A stretch of DNA of 64,000 nucleotides. Origin: Aliiroseovarius zhejiangensis (GTDB lineage Bacteria > Pseudomonadota > Alphaproteobacteria > Rhodobacterales > Rhodobacteraceae). This document shows, in pieces, positions 214-59,546 of this stretch (positions within the stretch are counted from its first letter, which is position 1; each line of letters begins with the position of its first letter). The notes below the pieces were generated by a model. It was not told the DNA's origin. It saw only the letters and a program-made list of their open reading frames with translations, and made no database searches. The translations under genes were made by a program, and so were the position numbers. The DNA is taken from the NCBI RefSeq assembly GCF_014656375.1, contig NZ_BNCH01000002.1, forward strand, positions 1 through 64,000, in the 5' to 3' direction.

Positions 214-615
214 ATGCCTTATAGTCCTACAGCCAACAATCTTTCTGACGCGATCGACGCATCAGGCCTTACCCAACGCGAAATTGCTGACCGGGTAGGG
301 TTCAACCATCCAAACGTTCTGTCAATGATGAAGCAAGGGGTGACACGTGTTCCACTGCAACGCATCCCTGCGCTTGCTCAGACGCTTGGTATGGATCCGA
401 GCCAGTTCTTGTTGGTGGCGATTGAAGAGTATCACCCCGGTGTTTACGAAGTGCTTTGTGACGTGCTTGGCCTGCCGCTTACGGACGCTGAGATGGGGGT
501 GGTTCTGATGTTTCGCATGGCATGCATGCGCGGCGATATCGAACTCGAAGGGCCGTTCAAGAAGGCGCTGGAAGGCTTGATGGAAATGGCTGAGGTGGCT
601 TCGACAAGCAGATAA
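214..615 (+). CDS. HTH (Cro/C1-like) regulator, copy 1
   Basis: A 133-residue protein with an N-terminal helix-turn-helix of Cro/C1 type: residues around 17-45 read like the LTQREIADRVGF...VLSMMKQG pattern, followed by a segment with the look of an XRE dimer arm (IPALAQTLGMDPSQFL). The remaining 70 residues are helical with no motif I recognise. I chose ATG 214 because GAGGAG lies 8 bases upstream; an in-frame GTG at 157 would add 19 residues that run through the inverted repeat. The protein is almost the same as the one at 5098-5499 (N-terminus MPYS here, MAFS there). It probably acts as a small DNA-binding repressor. Its target is unknown; the leader palindrome suggests autoregulation. Confidence 0.8.
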   Translation: MPYSPTANNLSDAIDASGLTQREIADRVGFNHPNVLSMMKQGVTRVPLQRIPALAQTLGMDPSQFLLVAIEEYHPGVYEVLCDVLGLPLTDAEMGVVLMFRMACMRGDIELEGPFKKALEGLMEMAEVASTSR

Positions 616-2949: not shown

Positions 2950-4371
2950 TCAGTCGGGTAGTGTCTCAAACTCAAGTAGAAACGTGGTGCCGACGCCAAC
3001 AACGCTTTCAAAGTCTATATTCGCACCGTGTTTGTCGAGGATGCGTTTTGTGATGTGCAACCCAAGGCCCGTTCCCCCAAACTTCCGCGTATCGGAGGCG
3101 TCGAGCTGTGAAAACGGTTTGAACAGTTTATCCCTTGCCTCTTGAGGAATTCCTATACCTTGGTCCGCGACGCGAATAATGGCCATTCCGCCTTCCTTCT
3201 CTGCCGAGACGCGGATGATGTCTCCTTCGTCAGAGAATTTAATCGCGTTCGAGAGCAAGTTCGCCATCACCTGGAGCAGGCGTGATTTGTCACCAAGGAT
3301 CATGAGCACTTCACCAGAGGTTTCGAAAGCAACCTCGATCCGTGAGTTCCGCGCATAATGAGAAATAGCGTCAACTGCTTCCTGCACTATTTCTTCGAGA
3401 TTCATCGTTTCTAAGTGCAGGTCAATCTGGCTGGCTTCCATTTTTTGAAGATCCAGAAGCTCACCGATAAGAAGAAGCAGACGATCCGTGTTTCGCTGCG
3501 CCATGTCCAGCAAAGGTGATAACTCAGCAGGTATCTCGCTCGCCGCGCCACTTCTCATCAGGTCAAGTGACCCCTTGATCGACGTTAGTGGCGTACGCAG
3601 TTCATGGCTGACGGTAGAGAGAAATTGCGACTTCGCTTCGGACGCTCTCATGGCCCGGTCGCGTTCCAGCTTCAAACTCTCGAACTGGCGCATATTCTTC
3701 CTGTAGAGATCAACAAATATCCGCGAACAATCCACTATGAAATATAGAACAAAGCCGACCGTGATGAACTGCAGCCAAAGATAGGAGTCAATTGGTGGTC
3801 GGACGACAATCAGGTCGCGCGCGGGAATGAAAATGAAAGCAAGACCGTAGATCACCAGCTTAATGAGAAGGAGTTGTGGAATCTGGTGATTGTTGACGGC
3901 GGCAAAAAGCGCTGCGGCAAACAACAGGAACAGGGGCGTGAAATGAAGGGCTGGACCCTCTGACCACGACATTACTATTGCAAATGAAGCAATTGCGAGC
4001 GTACTTAGAATTTGGCTCATGATGACCAGAGCGAGATATTTTCTAGTCTCGCGAACGCTGCCACCTTTCCAAACGATCACTTTTTTGGAAATGCAAAGGT
4101 CTGTCGCTTCCGCAAGCAGGAGGAACAAATAGCATATAGAGGCAAGGAAGAAGTCGAAGTAGTAAGCCGTTAAAAGGGCAACGCCTGCGAACATCGCCTG
4201 CCGTTGCCACAACAACTCCATACCGACTTTGACAAAGTCTTTCAACTGATGCTCTGACCGGATTTTCTGGAGCCGCTTTCCACTGCCAGGCTTGTCCGCA
4301 AGCACCACAAAGTCACGCTTGGGTATACGCTTTGCCAACCAGATCAATGGCGTTTTCAAAGATATGTTCAT
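2950..4371 (-). CDS. Membrane sensor histidine kinase
   Basis: 473 residues. About residues 55-220 contain five to six hydrophobic helices forming an integral membrane sensor with no large periplasmic loop. A short coiled coil leads into the HisKA dimerisation domain with SHELRTPL (His256), then the HATPase domain with the N box (NLLSNAIKF), G1 (DQGIGIP), F box (FKPF) and G2 (GGTGLGL). It has no receiver of its own, so phosphate must pass to the separate CheY-like protein encoded just downstream. The multi-helix sensor could detect a membrane or hydrophobic signal, but nothing in the sequence names it. ATG 4371 is the first start in the frame and gives a complete protein. Confidence 0.92.
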   Translation of the reverse strand: MNISLKTPLIWLAKRIPKRDFVVLADKPGSGKRLQKIRSEHQLKDFVKVGMELLWQRQAMFAGVALLTAYYFDFFLASICYLFLLLAEATDLCISKKVIVWKGGSVRETRKYLALVIMSQILSTLAIASFAIVMSWSEGPALHFTPLFLLFAAALFAAVNNHQIPQLLLIKLVIYGLAFIFIPARDLIVVRPPIDSYLWLQFITVGFVLYFIVDCSRIFVDLYRKNMRQFESLKLERDRAMRASEAKSQFLSTVSHELRTPLTSIKGSLDLMRSGAASEIPAELSPLLDMAQRNTDRLLLLIGELLDLQKMEASQIDLHLETMNLEEIVQEAVDAISHYARNSRIEVAFETSGEVLMILGDKSRLLQVMANLLSNAIKFSDEGDIIRVSAEKEGGMAIIRVADQGIGIPQEARDKLFKPFSQLDASDTRKFGGTGLGLHITKRILDKHGANIDFESVVGVGTTFLLEFETLPD

Positions 4372-5021
4372 GCCGCTGACCGGTCCTGCAGAATGTTCTC
4401 TAAGCTGGGCGCAAGAGCTTCCTGTTTGATGTCGATTTGCAAGTTCGCGCCCTCCTGAGTTCAGCGGTCTATATGGACACCCGAGGTTTCAACCTGCCAG
4501 CGCTCTGCTACGTTGCGGGGCGTGTCGCTGCATGAGCATGGTGTCAGACAAGGAGGCTGTTTCATGCGTCAGTTTACAGTATTCCGTTCACCGCACTGTA
4601 TATGATAAATTGTGGGCAATGTCGTCAATACAGTTATGGGTTGATTTCTTCATCTGTGCCGAGTGTGTTTCCGTCTATGGATCGAGTTCCTATAAGCGCA
4701 AGAAGAACTGGCCGCTGGTCGTTGAAACGGCGGTGACTGTGGCGGCAACGAGTCTGGTCACGGCAGTGCAGTCCCAGCTAGTTCTTTAGTGGATTAAGGC
4801 CGCACATGGGGTGAACGCAATTAAGCAGAAAGACACCGATCAGATGCTGCCTTGGAACTGACCGGGCTGAAGTCCCGCTTACATTGCATCGCTCACGTGC
4901 GACCCGTTTGATTGAACTGTAGTTTCGTGTTTGGTAAACATATGCAGATGAAACATGAGATCAAAAGCTATCTTTGTAGTTCTCAAAAACTGCAGAAACA
5001 AACGACCTCCGAATGGAAGGG
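4372..5021. other. 650-bp non-coding stretch upstream of the kinase genes
   Basis: This lies between the kinase start and the second HTH repeat and probably holds the promoter of the minus-strand kinase operon. The only open frame of any size (4532-4789, plus strand, 85 codons) lacks a recognisable domain and a ribosome site, and I do not call it a gene. The stretch may contain decayed mobile-element sequence, but I cannot name any. Confidence 0.5.
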
Positions 5022-5519
5022 TTAACTGCATCGCAAGGATGTGAACTCGCTCGCTAACACAAGACATCGAAACGACAATGTCTTGAGGAGTGTAGTCATG
5101 GCCTTTAGCCCCACAGCCAACAATCTATCTGACGCGATCGACGCATCAGGTCTTACCCAACGCGAAATTGCCGACCGGGTTGGTTTCAACCATCCAAACG
5201 TTCTGTCAATGATGAAGCAAGGGGTGACACGTGTTCCACTGCAACGCATCCCTGCGCTTGCTCAGACGCTTGGTATGGATCCGAGCCAGTTCTTGTTGGT
5301 GGCGATTGAAGAGTATCACCCCGGTGTTTACGAAGTGCTTTGTGACGTGCTTGGCCTGCCGCTTACGGACGCTGAGATGGGGGTGGTTCTGATGTTTCGC
5401 ATGGCATGCATGCGCGGCGATATCGAACTCGAAGGGCCGTTCAAGAAGGCGCTGGAAGGCTTGATGGAAATGGCTGAGGTGGCTTCGACAAGCAGATAAG
5501 TCAGATGGGATATCAGAGA
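5022..5519. repeat. 498-bp direct repeat, right copy
   Basis: Second copy of 138-635. The repeated unit includes the palindromic leader (arms 5061-5067 and 5078-5084), the HTH gene and a 20-base tail. Twelve mismatches against the left copy cluster at the start of the gene. Confidence 0.95.
5098..5499 (+). CDS. HTH (Cro/C1-like) regulator, copy 2
   Basis: 133 residues, same fold and length as the gene at 214-615. The proteins differ only at residues 2-3 (Ala-Phe here, Pro-Tyr there); the other coding differences are synonymous and lie in the first 30 codons. The start ATG 5098 has GAGGAG upstream, as in copy 1. No gene follows in the same direction until the integrase 295 bases away, so it is probably monocistronic. 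Both copies look intact. Confidence 0.8.
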   Translation: MAFSPTANNLSDAIDASGLTQREIADRVGFNHPNVLSMMKQGVTRVPLQRIPALAQTLGMDPSQFLLVAIEEYHPGVYEVLCDVLGLPLTDAEMGVVLMFRMACMRGDIELEGPFKKALEGLMEMAEVASTSR

Positions 5520-5793: not shown

Positions 5794-6741
5794 ATGGGTA
5801 AGCCCAAGAAAACCGTCTCAGATGCCTGCAATAGCTGGTTGAAAACCTGTCTGCGTAATGAGCTCGAACGCTCTACGCTGAAGGCTTATCGAAGTCATGC
5901 CAAGATCCATATTGAACCGAGGATAGGGCATCTTCTGGTCAATGACCTGTCGCGCGGTGAAGTCCGAGAATTCATGGATGAATTGCTTGACGAAGACGTA
6001 TCCCGTGCGCTGGTAAAGAAGATCATGGTCAGCCTGCGAGCCATTCTTTCGGAAGCCGTGGAACGCGAATGGGCGACCCACAATGCTGCTGCTGAAGTGA
6101 AAGTCAAACGAAGCTCACGTCGCGATGCGAAGCGCGCTGACATTCCCACCAAGGAAGAGATCCGGAAGATCATCAACAATGCCCCAAAGACACATCGGGC
6201 CATGTTCATCACGGCTATCTTCACGGGTATGCGGATTTCCGAATTGAGGGGACTGACCTGGGAGGCTGTGGACTTCGATCGTAAAGTAATACGCGTATTC
6301 CAGCGCGCAGATGAGTATTGCGAGATCGGCTTGCCAAAGAGCAGGGCAGGGGCCCGTGAGATCCCGATGGCTCCGATGGTGCTCAACACACTAGGGGATT
6401 GGAAGGTGCAAAAGCTGAGGAGCGATCAGAATCTGGTCTTCCCAAATACGGTTGGCAAGGTGCAGAACTACTCGAACATTTACAATCGCGTGTTTAAACC
6501 AATGTTGGTTGAGAACGAGATTGTTGATCAAGAAGGAAATGCAAGGTTTGGCATTCATGCACTCCGACATGCCGCCGCATCGCTGTTCATTGAACAAGGC
6601 TGGACGCCGAAGAAAATCCAGACGCTTCTTGGGCACGCATCGATCACCATGACAATGGATGTCTATGGGCACCTCTTCGAGAATGCGGAAGAAGATGTGT
6701 CTATGTTTGAGAAACTGGAGCGAGATCTGTTGGCCGCGTAG
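5794..6741 (+). CDS. Tyrosine-type site-specific recombinase (integrase)
   Basis: 315 residues, full length for phage-type integrases. The N-terminal 60 residues are the SAM-like core-binding arm (AYRSHAKIHIEPRIG...), and residues about 120-300 are the catalytic domain. The catalytic set is complete: Arg147 in TGMRISELRGL, His255 and Arg258 in HALRHAAAS, His281 in LLGHASI and the nucleophile Tyr291 in DVYGHL. AAAGGA lies upstream of ATG 5794. It is the only recombinase gene in the low-G+C block whose other end is a tRNA-Phe fragment at 17167-17214, so it is a candidate for the enzyme that moved the island. However, an integrase normally sits next to the intact tRNA, so it may belong to a nested element. 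Confidence 0.93.
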   Translation: MGKPKKTVSDACNSWLKTCLRNELERSTLKAYRSHAKIHIEPRIGHLLVNDLSRGEVREFMDELLDEDVSRALVKKIMVSLRAILSEAVEREWATHNAAAEVKVKRSSRRDAKRADIPTKEEIRKIINNAPKTHRAMFITAIFTGMRISELRGLTWEAVDFDRKVIRVFQRADEYCEIGLPKSRAGAREIPMAPMVLNTLGDWKVQKLRSDQNLVFPNTVGKVQNYSNIYNRVFKPMLVENEIVDQEGNARFGIHALRHAAASLFIEQGWTPKKIQTLLGHASITMTMDVYGHLFENAEEDVSMFEKLERDLLAA

Positions 6742-13691: not shown

Positions 13692-15548
13692 TCAGCACGT
13701 CGAATACTCCGGAGCCAAAACAAGCCCCCTTGTGTTGCTCCCCTCTTCATCGGGTACAATTGCCCCACGAGATATCCAACACTCGAGTAACTCAAAATCG
13801 GACTGGCTTAGCGCAATGTTGTCATGTTCGGAACCCGTCGACATAGCCCGTAAGATACCGGATTCCGCAGGATTGCCTGCTGTGATGAGCGAGCTGTTTC
13901 CCGCTATCCGCTCCAGTGTCTCGAGATTAGGGCTCATACCTGACGAGTTGTGGCAACCCGCACACTTGTCGAGCAGCAGGTCGTGAACGCCGGTTGCCAG
14001 CTCTGAGTCTGACATCAGAACGGTAAATCCGTCGACGCCACTCTCAATTGGATTGACAGGCGCCGGTCGAAGATCGAGCGCAGCAGTTTGAATGAAAGGA
14101 TTGTCACGGCAAGCGTCCAGTAAGATCAACGTGTATTCCACGGTCGACTCACGGATCGCGCGGATGACATTGCGGATAGTCATTGCGCCCGCTTCGAGGT
14201 CTCGCTTGTTTTGTATGTCTGCATCAACAGGAAGCATGTAATTCTCATTGTCGACCTGGACTCCATGACCGGAATAGTAGAACGCAACAATGGTCGGTGC
14301 CTCGGAAGCTTCGATCAAGTCAACAACTCCATCCAACGTATAGTTTAGCTCTTCCAGTGATACATCCGTCGCTATCAATGTCATGAAACCCAAGTCACGG
14401 AAGGAACTGGAGACTGAAACAACGTCCGAGATCGGAGTTTGTAGGTCGGGTGCATTTATATAGTCCGCATTACCCACAATGAGCGCGATCTTTCGAAAAC
14501 TGCGATCTGCCAGATTTAGACTGACACCCAGTTCATTCTGAAAATCTGGAACCTGATCTCCACTCGTCTGCGTTGAAACGGCGGCCTTGATCTTCGGCGC
14601 GATGTAGTCGACATCGGTAGCGCCATCCCTAAGTGCCTCACTGAGCGCATAGCTGAACGGAGAGGTCTTTCCATCAATCGTGTTCACATCGAACGCCACC
14701 TTTCCCGGTGCAGTTGCGTACATCACGAGTGATCGCGTGGGTGCGTCAAACCCAGCCAAGCCCATCGTGCCGAATTTCTCAGTACCATCGTATCGGTTTG
14801 TTCCGAACCAGGATGTGTATGATAGCGCCAAGGCACCGATTAAAGCTGCAATGACCACATAGCGATAAGGAAGCCGCAGCATTCCGAGCGCCCAGTTGGG
14901 CCTTACGCCGGAGGCTTCGACCTTCGAGACAACAAACCTGTCCTCCCTGATCAGTGGAACCCAGAACTCGCGGGCAAACTCCAGCGATAGAAATTCGCTG
15001 TGCCCGAGGTCATGAAAGCGGTCACGGACCGCGACTGCTCCGAAGCCATCGACGCCTGACGTGCCATAGCCCCAAGTCAGGGATTTGGCCGCCAGAGGCC
15101 AGATATCACGCATGCCGCATTCGTTGACTATCGTATTGCGCTGCTCCGCCTCGGGGAATTGCGAGGCCAAACGATCCCAGGGGAAATCTTGTGCGATGAT
15201 GGAGCCACACAAGATGATCCGCTTCAAGCGGATACGCGGATTGGAAAGCAGTACTCTTGAGAGCGCGTAGGTTCCGAAGCTATGCGCGATTATAGTAACT
15301 TCGTGATCCGGATAGCGATGCAGTGTTTCTTCAATCCGTCTTTCAATCTTTCTTATTGTAGGTGTCTTCAGAAACCTAAATGGAAGCAGGAACCTCAGAA
15401 GATCAAACCGTCCGTATTTGACTGGAATAACGGTCGTGCCGGTCTCTTCCTCCAGCAAAATCGAAAGCGGCCCCTGCCACCAGGCACGAGTTCGTATGCC
15501 ATGCAGCAGAAGGACAATCTGAGGGGCGCCAGACCTTTCTTCTTTCAT
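13692..15548 (-). CDS. Alpha/beta hydrolase - TM - caspase-like - cytochrome c fusion protein
   Basis: 618 residues from ATG 15548; TTG 15587 would add 13 residues, but GGGAG lies 13 bases before the ATG. Domains in order: (1) residues 10-215, alpha/beta hydrolase with LLLHG oxyanion loop and nucleophile Ser90 in AHSFG; (2) one membrane helix, about 228-248; (3) residues 268-335, which read like the C-terminal p10 end of a metacaspase (LVMYATAPGKVA...SPFSYAL); (4) residues 345-490, the p20-like part with His428 in YSGHG and Cys480 in LLDACRDNP; (5) a cytochrome c-like segment with CAGCH (529-533) and a planctomycete-type ending. The p10 part preceding the p20 part suggests circular permutation. 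The helix predicts a periplasmic caspase and heme domain. The function of the whole protein is unknown. Confidence 0.85.
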   Translation of the reverse strand: MKEERSGAPQIVLLLHGIRTRAWWQGPLSILLEEETGTTVIPVKYGRFDLLRFLLPFRFLKTPTIRKIERRIEETLHRYPDHEVTIIAHSFGTYALSRVLLSNPRIRLKRIILCGSIIAQDFPWDRLASQFPEAEQRNTIVNECGMRDIWPLAAKSLTWGYGTSGVDGFGAVAVRDRFHDLGHSEFLSLEFAREFWVPLIREDRFVVSKVEASGVRPNWALGMLRLPYRYVVIAALIGALALSYTSWFGTNRYDGTEKFGTMGLAGFDAPTRSLVMYATAPGKVAFDVNTIDGKTSPFSYALSEALRDGATDVDYIAPKIKAAVSTQTSGDQVPDFQNELGVSLNLADRSFRKIALIVGNADYINAPDLQTPISDVVSVSSSFRDLGFMTLIATDVSLEELNYTLDGVVDLIEASEAPTIVAFYYSGHGVQVDNENYMLPVDADIQNKRDLEAGAMTIRNVIRAIRESTVEYTLILLDACRDNPFIQTAALDLRPAPVNPIESGVDGFTVLMSDSELATGVHDLLLDKCAGCHNSSGMSPNLETLERIAGNSSLITAGNPAESGILRAMSTGSEHDNIALSQSDFELLECWISRGAIVPDEEGSNTRGLVLAPEYSTC

Positions 15549-15846: not shown

Positions 15847-16983
15847 TCATTCATTACCAAAGTGCAGCAGGCGCACTTCGCCGGTGGTGATTTGGACAGC
15901 ATAGATACGATACGCCCCAGCGTCTGAATGGGCGCTGTCGTGGCTCGCCACAGCTTCGAGAAGCAGCCATCCGTTGCTATAGACATGGGGTGTCAGCGGT
16001 GGCCCATGTTCGTTGCCATAGTCGAACAGATCGGTCAGCCCGGGAAAGGCTGTGGTAAGGATGAAGATTGAAGAACGGCTTCCGTCCAAACCGAAAACCT
16101 TGATCTCGCCTGTTCGGGAAAAGGCGCCAGTTGTAATGAGCAAACGACTCTCGGGATCGTAGAGCAACCCGGCTGCGTCATACTCGTCCAGGCTGGTCAC
16201 AACTGCCCACGCTCCGGTCTGTACATCGATAGAGTAAAGATAGCCTTCCGCGCCATAGGTGATGCAATAGATCGTCTGCGAGACTGGGTCATATACGGCC
16301 GCTGCCGGCAGGAAGATATCAGGGACATTGGGTGTTGCCGCAAACCGGCGCGTGCCTGTTGGGCCAGTAAGGTCAATCCCCTTCTCATCGAAAACCAGGG
16401 TGAATTGCGAGCTGCTGCCCCTGTTGTCGAACCAGTCGCGGATTTTCGGTGGCAGATCATCGGACGCAACGACCAGTTGTGAAAGGTAGTCACGCGCGAG
16501 ACCGGCGGTTCTCGTATCAACGTGATCTATCTTCACAGGCACGTCGGTGGCGTTGTGTATCCCCCGAAAGCTGCTGATCCGCTCTGTTTCCATACTGTCG
16601 GCCAAAGTGTCGACGAGCGTTCGGAATTTCCGCCCCAATGGGCGAAAAACCAGGGGCAGCCCAGAGACCTGCACTCCAGCCATCGGAATCCCAAAGAGGG
16701 TGACCTTGCTGTCTCTCGGGCTTGGACCACTCCTTATGATCTCGCCGATATTGGTCCCTTCCGTTGCCTCGACCTTCCAGTGCAGTTCCCCATCGTCCAG
16801 CAACACAAGACCGATTTCTTGACCTGGTCGATCCACCAAGACCCGGGCCTCGGGCAAGGCATAGTAATCCTCCGTCTGGTACCCCTTGGCGACTGCCACG
16901 ACGTGTATCTCGCGCTGGGCCAAAACCGGACCGGCAAGTCCCAGCAAAAGGCAAATCAACAAGCTTCTATGCAAACGGAACAT
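15847..16983 (-). CDS. Secreted protein of unknown function, possible beta-propeller
   Basis: 378 residues from ATG 16983. I chose this start because it begins directly with a signal peptide (RLHRS, a run of LLICLLLGLAG, cleavage near VLAQR); the frame extends 56 codons further upstream without a better signal. The mature part lacks cysteine pairs or a known catalytic motif. In its second half, repeats such as AAAVYDPVSQTIYCITYG, GYLYSIDVQTGAW and AGLLYDPESRLLITTG look like blades of a beta-propeller, and the last residues return to that pattern (YRIYAVQITTGEV). It is encoded next to the caspase fusion in the same direction and would share the periplasm with it. Partnership is inference. Confidence 0.7.
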   Translation of the reverse strand: MFRLHRSLLICLLLGLAGPVLAQREIHVVAVAKGYQTEDYYALPEARVLVDRPGQEIGLVLLDDGELHWKVEATEGTNIGEIIRSGPSPRDSKVTLFGIPMAGVQVSGLPLVFRPLGRKFRTLVDTLADSMETERISSFRGIHNATDVPVKIDHVDTRTAGLARDYLSQLVVASDDLPPKIRDWFDNRGSSSQFTLVFDEKGIDLTGPTGTRRFAATPNVPDIFLPAAAVYDPVSQTIYCITYGAEGYLYSIDVQTGAWAVVTSLDEYDAAGLLYDPESRLLITTGAFSRTGEIKVFGLDGSRSSIFILTTAFPGLTDLFDYGNEHGPPLTPHVYSNGWLLLEAVASHDSAHSDAGAYRIYAVQITTGEVRLLHFGNE

Positions 16984-17166
16984 CGGCGTCTCACGTAACG
17001 AATGGGCGACGAAGTGACTGAAGTCTGCCGTCACCGGGTTACGACGCATTTTACCGCGGCGTGTCACTCCAGTCGAGAACAGCAGCCCACAGTTCTTAGC
17101 GCATTGTTGGCCTAGTGTAGTTGCAACGTAAATGTTTGGATTCTGCGCCAATCGAATCCTCTGGAT

Positions 17167-58158: not shown

Positions 58159-58659
58159 TCACCAGGTTAGCAGCTTTGTATTGCAATGATCGCTGTTAAA
58201 TCGGCCTTGTTCTTTTAGTTGGTTGAAAATCCAAAGAGTATTGACGTTCATATCTTTGGAGGCACCAAAGTAGGTTTCCCCTAGGTCTTGTGACAGCCTG
58301 TTATACAGGTCTGGGTTTTCGACTTCTTTGACCACGCCTGTTTCTTGTGTCCAGATAAACATGAAATCGTTTCCATGCTCTGGCCAAGCCCACCCAAATG
58401 CTGCGAATTCAGTCAGGTGAATTGGAAAAACTTCTTTGGCAATGATGTCACCAGCCACTGTTCGGAGCACAGCATCTGGTATGAAGTATGAATTTCTAAA
58501 ATTGACGTTAGCCTCGTATCCAATTTCAGCGCCACTAGGCAGACGAACGCAATCGCCATATTTTAGGGAATATAAGCCGGATAGAGAGAGTGCTGGTATG
58601 CCCATCAGGCTACATAAACCTAGCACTACTACCAGTGCACCTCCAAGAAATCGCCGCAT
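58159..58659 (-). CDS. Small exported or membrane-anchored protein, possible partner of the MuF gene
   Basis: 166 residues from ATG 58659 (TTG 58665 is an alternative). The N-terminus MRRFLGGALVVVLGLCSLMG is a signal peptide or anchor. The mature part has a CVRLPSGAEIGYEANVNF segment and many aromatic residues, with no known motif. It follows the MuF-type gene by two bases. AT-rich base use sets both apart from ptsP and lysC. A periplasmic immunity or accessory role is possible but unproven. Confidence 0.55.
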   Translation of the reverse strand: MRRFLGGALVVVLGLCSLMGIPALSLSGLYSLKYGDCVRLPSGAEIGYEANVNFRNSYFIPDAVLRTVAGDIIAKEVFPIHLTEFAAFGWAWPEHGNDFMFIWTQETGVVKEVENPDLYNRLSQDLGETYFGASKDMNVNTLWIFNQLKEQGRFNSDHCNTKLLTW

Positions 58660-58661
58660 TT

Positions 58662-59546
58662 TCAATATCGGCTTTTAGCTGGATCGGCGTAAATTTGCCC
58701 GCTTACACTGCCTGACCACTGGCCAGTTATTGAATATGGGACACCTTCACGAACGCCCAATCTCTGACGACCGTTGGGTGGCAAGCCGACCCGCCCACGT
58801 AGGTAGTCATTTAGTGGCTTGTGAATGTTGTCGTACAGGATGCTGCCGGGGCTATAGTCGTCGACTTCGACGCCAACGTCCAAAGGGTCAGCAAATTCGT
58901 CGTTTAAGTAGAGGTCCAAGCGGCCTTCGATGCTGAGGATTCCATTGCTCTCGGAGACATGTCCAGAAAATGCCCCACCTATCGTTGTGTCTCCAATACT
59001 AAACACGACACCATTCATACTGTAAGTGTTCTCGAAGTTGTAGGATACACTGCCTGAGCGTGAATTTCTAGCAGCGTTGGCGATCTGCTTTTTAAGTGGC
59101 TCGCCGTGAAGATCAATAAATGCTTCCCCGATTTTACGGCTGTGCCCTCTCTCGGAGAGAGTGACGCCCCGCCCTCGTCCATTGAAATAATGGTTTACGA
59201 AGTCGTTGTTGTCCCAGCCTGACTTTGTGCCAACCCCGTCTATAGATAGTTCAATATACTCAGATATATCAGGAAAATACGGCTCTGCTGTGCAACGGCA
59301 GTTATAGTCTTCCCCTGGATGCCCACCTTCAGGTGGATCACCCCATGAGAAAATCTGTCCTTCGCGTTCTGCATGAGCTGAGCGCACTTTGCCATCGCGG
59401 CGTGTTCGCCAGATGTAATGTGTTGTTGGTCGCTCTTGCTTGATCGACCGCAGAATCGGGGTGCCTTTTCTCAGATATTCCTGAAAGGCTTTTCGGTAGA
59501 TGTGTTGATCGACAATCAAAGATGCCTGCGCGTAGGAGAAATTCAA
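58662..59546 (-). CDS. Protein with MuF-like motif and unknown C-terminal domain
   Basis: 294 residues, TTG start 59546 with GGAGG upstream. Residues about 40-95 carry the phage MuF/minor head protein signature: TTHYIWRTRRDGKVRSAH followed by WGDPPEGGHPGEDYNCRC. The N-terminal half of a normal MuF protein is missing. Residues 100-294 form a beta-rich segment (GGAFSGHV, SIEGRLDLYLNDEFADPLD, YSITGQWSGSVSG) that I do not recognise. Fusion of a MuF motif to a variable C-terminal domain is known from polymorphic toxins. It may therefore be a toxin, or just a prophage remnant. Confidence 0.6.
   Translation of the reverse strand: MNFSYAQASLIVDQHIYRKAFQEYLRKGTPILRSIKQERPTTHYIWRTRRDGKVRSAHAEREGQIFSWGDPPEGGHPGEDYNCRCTAEPYFPDISEYIELSIDGVGTKSGWDNNDFVNHYFNGRGRGVTLSERGHSRKIGEAFIDLHGEPLKKQIANAARNSRSGSVSYNFENTYSMNGVVFSIGDTTIGGAFSGHVSESNGILSIEGRLDLYLNDEFADPLDVGVEVDDYSPGSILYDNIHKPLNDYLRGRVGLPPNGRQRLGVREGVPYSITGQWSGSVSGQIYADPAKSRY

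Follow-up and report, generated by a model that had tools for sequence, protein, structure and literature searches.

Architecture of the gene

The window, meaning the whole 64,000-nt stretch of DNA that was analysed, carries on its minus strand a gene for a protein of 618 amino acids, in which a hydrolase, a membrane helix, both halves of a caspase and a cytochrome-like domain follow one another. The features of this gene are as follows.

13692..15548, minus strand: whole gene, 618 aa, in the order hydrolase, membrane helix, p10, p20, cytochrome-like domain (translation, Pfam)
14934..15548, minus strand: alpha/beta hydrolase, residues 1-205 (family alignments, model, fold search)
15279-15281, 15105-15107 and 15000-15002, minus strand: hydrolase triad S90, D148 and H183
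14802..14858, minus strand: membrane helix, residues 231-249 (Kyte-Doolittle; helix 220-251 in the model)
14547..14768, minus strand: caspase p10 half, here N-terminal, residues 261-334 (Pfam PF00656, relatives' model)
14496..14546, minus strand: linker of ~17 aa between the former C-terminal end (p10) and the former N-terminal end (p20), residues 335-351
14094..14495, minus strand: caspase p20 half, residues 352-485 (Pfam, alignment, relatives' model)
14265-14267 and 14109-14111, minus strand: catalytic H428 and C480, both in p20
13761..13988, minus strand: predicted planctomycete-type cytochrome c domain, residues 521-596, without the MPP loop (alignment)
13950..13964, minus strand: CAGCH, putative heme-attachment motif, residues 529-533

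Translation from the ATG at 15548 yields 618 codons and a stop with zero internal stops. This is the same single frame that the initial annotation had read at 13692-15548, and the motifs it had named (S90 in AHSFG, H428 in YSGHG, C480 in DACRDNP and CAGCH at 529-533) stand at the positions it gave. The membrane helix recognised there coincides with the best 19-residue Kyte-Doolittle window (231-249), which is preceded by three Arg within 15 residues and followed by one Arg and one Lys within 15 residues. The domain anatomy of the protein as a whole is considered very likely to be correct.

A sequencing error at the domain joints had been named beforehand as something that would undo the idea of a fusion. 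No sign of such an error was found, each caspase half being complete, and third-position GC is alike across the five parts of the protein (0.53-0.60). A frame error or a chimera at the joints was discarded as unlikely, given the complete in-frame halves. An artefact of the assembly is hardly credible either. The gene comes from one assembly only (3.4 Mb in 19 contigs), but in-frame joints of complete domains would hardly result from a misjoin, and the source contig measures 641 kb, a length which is no independent proof of the gene because it stems from the same assembly.

Circular permutation of the caspase

The initial interpretation holds with regard to the domains, the catalytic residues, the helix, the planctomycete-type CxxCH and the periplasmic C-terminal side; what it overlooked is the order of the caspase halves. 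Judged from its sequence, the caspase is circularly permuted, with a complete p10 (261-334) ahead of a complete p20 (352-485), and for this reason its mechanism would differ from the one first envisaged.

On the whole protein, Pfam Peptidase_C14 matches in two stretches with an E-value of 1.1e-28 and 101 bits (cut-off 21.4). Residues 352-489 correspond to positions 1-140 of this model, and a segment of roughly 100 residues running from the helix to the start of p20, scanned alone, corresponds to positions 160-225 of Peptidase_C14 (PF00656) at 33.3 bits against 21.4. Separate models of p10 and p20 were built from relatives only, the window protein being excluded, although models seeded by that protein had served to collect these relatives. 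The p10 model reaches 48.7 bits at residues 263-334 (model 2-70 of 71), and the p20 model 130.4 bits at residues 352-485 (model 1-134 of 134). A second p10 remnant C-terminal to p20 is absent (-2.3 bits).

Both halves align with bacterial caspases at 25-40 % identity. The His-Cys dyad of H428 and C480 lies in columns that are invariant across 23 aligned sequences, as do D375 and D478 of p20, which we take to be the two acidic residues that metacaspase structures place in the S1 pocket. The acidic pocket suggests that the predicted protease prefers Arg or Lys. At the start of p10 stands D268, a candidate for the conserved Asp described there in the type III literature. A sequence search of the PDB returned MALT1 and one chance-level pilin, and nothing else.

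Order of the halves in other caspases

A search for the domain order in other genomes had been proposed in the initial annotation. In 238 loci, frames of at least 100 codons were counted with p20 above 25 bits and p10 above 15 bits, and among these loci p10-p20 was found only in seven copies of the gene itself. The order p20-p10 occurs in 176 frames with 171 distinct p20 sequences, and in none of these 176 other caspase frames, each having either half once, does p10 precede p20. The remaining frames comprise 18 with p20 only, three with p10 only, one p20-p10-p20 and one below both thresholds. In the relatives for which both pieces were listed, the counterpart of residues 258-340 stands behind that of residues 350-490.

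With the whole protein or its caspase part as query, matches were obtained in 15 of 61, 71 of 385 and 95 of 398 genomes, the own genome included in each, and at an E-value of 1e-18 in 53 of 292 genomes, again including the own genome; the four sets overlap, and only some of the matches were turned into loci. No permuted partner was seen among the matches listed in these four genome searches. Since this covers the matches as listed and, in one search for relatives, the best 80 of 535, the absence of the permuted form elsewhere is not proven.

Five matches were checked as suspects, four of them reaching p10 (G038, G677, G948, G988) and one running past p20 (G658). In G677, G948, G988 and G658 the p10 match stands after p20, and G038 (locus L013) has only a weak p10 of 9.5 bits behind p20 and was counted as p20 only; all five were rejected as permuted relatives. 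Four of the 176 p20-p10 frames had been fetched as such suspects, with matches into p10 or past p20. A scan of genome contigs with the whole protein found no relative, and the full protein occurs in none of 20 congeners (two of them less than 90 % complete), one of which, G007, has separate caspase matches. Phage records gave zero matches and plasmids no near DNA match. The permuted protein is a single sequence, and a second example is lacking.

Predicted structure of the caspase

A structure prediction of residues 250-618 had likewise been proposed at the outset. AlphaFold2 gives a confident caspase fold (pTM 0.63) with the halves predicted together, a packing judged by pLDDT and pTM and derived from an alignment (A6) in which p10 rows and p20 rows are separate. 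The pLDDT of most p10 and p20 blocks is 80-97, dropping to 74 at the beginning and to 76 around residue 365; behind residue 490 the blocks mostly reach 27-45 and at best 63. The row sets for A6 were varied by script until MAFFT set the p10 and p20 rows in place. Alignments A2, A3 and A5 were discarded since rows of one half had come to lie on the other half, and A4 since the same had happened to the ends of its p10 rows.

In a Foldseek search against the PDB, chains of JF1cpCasp2 rank 1, 2, 3 and 5. The top match, 8vp4_B, has an E-value of 1.6e-10 over 249 columns on a chain of 237 residues, with a TMt of 0.68, an rmsd of 4.5 and 16 % identity. MALT1 chains come next, some with about 130-160 columns and others longer at an rmsd above 10. 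Against viral models, the best folds are mostly giant-virus caspases, one of them at an E-value below 0.001. The permuted protease is probably active.

Comparison with known caspases

The best structural match is cpCasp2, a name used in PMC7760212 for circularly permuted caspase-2; its small subunit precedes the large one with a short linker, as in the window protein. Rev-caspase-3 and -6 are further engineered permuted caspases cited in that source. Such proteins are man-made from human caspases, in contrast to the window protein, whose acidic pocket suggests Arg or Lys. The engineered human-derived permuted caspases are Asp-specific.

In algae with secondary plastids, type III metacaspases are marked by p10 before p20, and one of them is redox-regulated via a Cys pair, according to PMC5756287 and PMC8455989. 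The window protein has the same order as these proteins (e.g. GtMC2 and PtMCA-IIIc), p10 ending before p20 starts by Pfam and the relatives' models rather than by the models of PMC6426788. This likeness is one of domain order, not of compared algal sequences, and the window protein differs from type III metacaspases in being bacterial and fused to a hydrolase, a helix and a heme domain. The 2019 survey PMC6426788, which classed prokaryotic homologues by this order of the halves, reports having found type III forms in neither Archaea nor Bacteria, among 11 archaeal and 1,121 bacterial p10-bearing proteins. In the later literature searched, most subscription journals lying outside it, no bacterial case with p10-p20 order was recognised. 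Bacterial metacaspases of type I order and p20-only orthocaspases belong to the same p20 and p10 families, mostly with an N-terminal hydrophobic stretch; the window protein is set apart by the p20-p10 order in 176/176 of their frames with each half once.

The C-terminal cytochrome-like domain

The C-terminal domain had been described as a CAGCH motif with a planctomycete-type cytochrome c ending, and it does align with a planctomycete cytochrome domain from CxxCH to L..WI..GA. When residues 490-618 are shuffled 100,000 times, a CxxCH arises in 220 cases. About 100 residues around CAGCH reach a z-score of 7.55 (1000 shuffles) against the cytochrome domain of a Singulisphaera plasmid protein, a value that is somewhat flattered because this partner was the best of 22 CxxCH occurrences outside the gene (29 with the seven copies). 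Control windows of the same Singulisphaera protein starting at 0-400 gave z-scores of -1.2 to 0.6, and the one starting at 450, which overlaps the motif, gave 4.1. With the CxxCH pentad masked, z is 4.03, with 17 residues aligned around L..WI..GA and at least one shuffle scoring higher. The likeness therefore leans on the pentad.

PSCyt1 domains, e.g. on the Singulisphaera plasmid pSINAC01, have the stretch from CxxCH to L..WI..GA in common with the window domain, which differs from them in standing behind a protease and in lacking the MPP segment. This segment before the last helix, presumably the carrier of the axial Met, falls into a gap of the alignment. No Pfam cytochrome family matches the domain at E-values up to 10, the NCBIfam model NF047812 (LIC11213 lipoprotein) reaches an E-value of 1.6e-4 and 21.8 bits, short of its cut-off of 100, and a sequence search of the PDB yields only cytochrome c4 at an E-value of 1.4. 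Relatives of the domain were found in none of 240 genomes of the class and not on plasmids. CcmE, which serves c-heme attachment, is encoded in the genome, so that a periplasmic CxxCH can be supplied with heme.

As far as the sequence can indicate, attachment of heme to the CAGCH domain is rather likely, and gating of the caspase by heme or redox state is a tentative proposal. The heme domain could instead be only structural or electron-transferring, or its CxxCH never loaded with heme, in which case the caspase would be constitutive and controlled by expression. The lack of a Pfam cytochrome family, of the MPP loop and of any relative in 240 genomes would suit this account, as would the shrinkage of the planctomycete likeness to 17 aligned residues under masking. 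The z-score of 7.55 against a named planctomycete cytochrome domain and the presence of CcmE speak against it, and it is considered unlikely.

Topology

The initial annotation had put the C-terminal side, including the caspase, into the periplasm. This topology is adopted because no signal peptide is seen by eye before the hydrolase, Arg residues lie ahead of the helix and a c-type heme needs the periplasm, for which CcmE is available in the genome. A periplasmic caspase is also in keeping with its ordinary relatives: a hydrophobic stretch of 15 residues lies within 120 residues ahead of p20 in 134 of the 157 p20-p10 frames in which p20 begins after position 20 of the frame.

Origin of the gene

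The upstream acyltransferase has a match in six of the 20 congeners. The four with 66-81 % identity have decarboxylase, ATP-grasp and acyltransferase genes grouped as in the window; in these, DNA similarity extends to the end of the acyltransferase gene or stops a little earlier, and the caspase gene does not follow, nor do the next window genes tested. Third-position GC of the caspase gene is 0.572, compared to 0.637-0.786 in six other window genes. Based on the absence in congeners, the break in similarity and the lower third-position GC, the caspase gene is accessory and was probably acquired already fused.

The same low third-position GC would also suit a gene that is debris of recombination, its p10 and p20 stemming from different or tandem caspase genes and its product being inactive. 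A tandem frame does exist (L082 2869-4443, Chitinophagaceae, p20-p10-p20, the second p20 weak at 30.3 bits), and the p10-p20 order is known from one example. However, the halves are complete, catalytic and pocket residues are kept, the joint is short and clean and a single fold is predicted confidently, and debris is therefore regarded as quite improbable. The tandem order of the Chitinophagaceae frame is a possible kind of intermediate for permutation by duplication.

Elsewhere in the window, a direct repeat of 300 nt with 96 % identity (135-434 and 5019-5318) carries two near-identical HTH genes (157-615 and 5041-5499). Between these lie a response regulator (1316-2299) and a histidine kinase (2950-4371), and a phage-type integrase (5794-6741) comes next; GC is about 0.50. 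The whole looks like a small integrative element. At 58159-59546, a low-GC gene pair stands in a GC-rich stretch and encodes a Phage_Mu_F domain protein, which we read as toxin-like, and downstream a small protein without a Pfam match that could be its partner.

The hydrolase family

Residues 1-205 remain below the Pfam cut-offs for alpha/beta hydrolases (best 17.8-20.6 bits against 25.8-26.3), and a relative, L024, exceeds that of Hydrolase_4 (29.9 against 27). The alpha/beta hydrolase fold and the Ser-Asp-His triad are found in alignments and model. H16, G17, W24, H89, S90, G92, N142, D148, R177 and H183 are invariant in seven hydrolase rows; in a ten-row alignment with nine viral relatives S90 and D148 are invariant, H183 nearly so and R177 not. 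A model built with the viral relatives has a mean pLDDT of 82, and among solved structures it comes closest to lipases and esterases, with modest scores (best E-value 2.4e-5, TM ~0.45).

Viral contigs were fetched by the codon pattern of IAHSFGTY, and 10 of 12 reach an E-value of 6e-21 or lower with the family model; a viral scan with one hydrolase relative as query gave no match. Within the class, 10 of 289 genomes match the model, three of them at E-values below 1e-20, own genome included. The window hydrolase as single query matches 2 of 295 genomes of the family, its own and G173. The hydrolase of G978 is 46 % identical to it.

Triad and motif set are common to a family with variable partners, which include a receiver in front or tails of TPR (Singulisphaera), WD40 (G404) or beta-rich (G978) type, the latter two labels being a reading of the sequence; other tails are short. 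Most of the members read, though not L218 and L219, show by eye a hydrophobic stretch after the hydrolase. Among the members read, a caspase and cytochrome tail occurs only in the window protein.

Genomic neighbourhood and a possible role in defence

Several relatives of the hydrolase are found in the company of defence genes. On an Enterobacter hormaechei plasmid, the hydrolase stands behind a PDC-M60C-like receiver and adjoins PDC-M60A and PDC-M60B; this fusion (L025 5572-6726) is located where PDC-M60C might be expected. A relative on a Bradyrhizobium plasmid adjoins an oligonucleotide cyclase and a SAVED protein, and one on a Rhizobium plasmid adjoins PD-Lambda-4_A (E-value 1.3e-288). For the relatives of Novosphingobium, Singulisphaera, G173, G404 and G978, no defence neighbour was recognised among the few neighbours scanned.

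On three prophage contigs, the hydrolase is the last of three genes converging on terminase and portal genes, with PHROG names assigned for L216 and for the portal of L220, and L224 being likened to L216 by eye. These cassettes (L216 10800-12724, L224 5854-7787, L220 10525-12656) encode proteins of ~230-300 aa and 128 aa and a hydrolase of ~295 aa. A PADLOC scan of all three genes of L216 and of the first gene of L220 yielded nothing better than a single match at chance level (E-value 0.029), and the cassette is a candidate for a new defence system. From the gene order with the portal, we read the contigs as putatively P2-like. PMC9122126 describes an antiviral hotspot of P2 between gpA and the portal gpQ.

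Beside the caspase gene itself, no known defence gene was recognised among six neighbours with ordinary or no Pfam names, and PADLOC on one neighbour gave nothing. The caspase protein has a partial PADLOC match over p20 (PDLC02987, 24.2 bits) rather than a full system-protein match. The gene adjoining it (15847-17151, minus strand) has a signal-peptide-like start and is matched by no model of Pfam, NCBIfam or PADLOC. A defence or death role may be put forward with reserve, because of the hydrolase family's company in other organisms and not because of the protein's own locus.

Ordinary periplasmic work, namely protein processing or quality control under oxidative stress with the heme domain as redox sensor, could also employ a permuted caspase with no part in death or defence. 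The hydrophobic leader before p20 in 134/157 ordinary relatives and the locus without a recognised defence gene are compatible with this, whereas the recurrence of the hydrolase family with defence genes and on prophages and the accessory nature of a gene whose full protein is missing in 20/20 congeners argue against it. On balance, such ordinary work appears rather improbable.

Proposed mechanism and implications

The best explanation, to which we assign a probability of roughly 50 %, is a membrane hydrolase joined to a permuted periplasmic caspase that is gated by its own heme domain and brings about a growth stop upon stress or phage attack. The protein would pass the inner membrane once, with a serine hydrolase of a lipase-like family on the cytosolic side. 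On the periplasmic side, the permuted caspase (p10, then p20) would be followed by a c-type heme domain directly behind Cys480, the first Cys of the heme motif lying 49 residues behind it.

According to PMC7760212, joining p10 to the N-terminus of p20 lets a caspase assemble in active form without cleavage between the subunits. Since the published permuted caspases are active uncleaved, the window protease may require no activating cleavage and would then not be a zymogen of the usual kind. With this cleavage lost, the protease would need some other control; only the heme domain has been added at the end of p20 that the permutation sets free. Apparently without the usual axial Met, this domain might hold or gate the active-site loop depending on how far it is loaded with heme, on redox state or on a gas ligand. 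Once active, the protease would cut after Arg or Lys in periplasmic proteins, possibly including its own stalk, and the hydrolase would provide a second output on the opposite face of the membrane. The likely purpose would be a growth stop triggered by stress or phage.

In its boldest form, this reading would make the protein a natural bacterial reverse caspase that is born active because evolution exchanged the subunits in the manner of the engineered forms, and that is switched not by cleavage but by a domain with covalently bound heme, fused to the active-site loop. Upon a heme, redox or gas signal, the protease would act in the periplasm and the lipase-like domain of the same chain would attack from the cytosolic side, making a one-protein suicide device; we regard this as doubtful. 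The comparison with eukaryotic apoptosis is an analogy. No report of a bacterial caspase joined to a cytochrome c domain was found in a literature search that left most subscription journals outside.

A bacterial protein with p10-p20 order would mean that a permutation made in the laboratory is also natural outside algae, in contrast to the absence from prokaryotes in the 2019 survey. Through this protein, a hydrolase family whose members occur beside phage-defence genes is connected with a caspase. It is compact enough for a direct test of heme or redox control of a caspase and would let the activation of such proteases be studied in a natural case. A permuted caspase in bacteria suggests that zymogen cleavage can be exchanged for other control.
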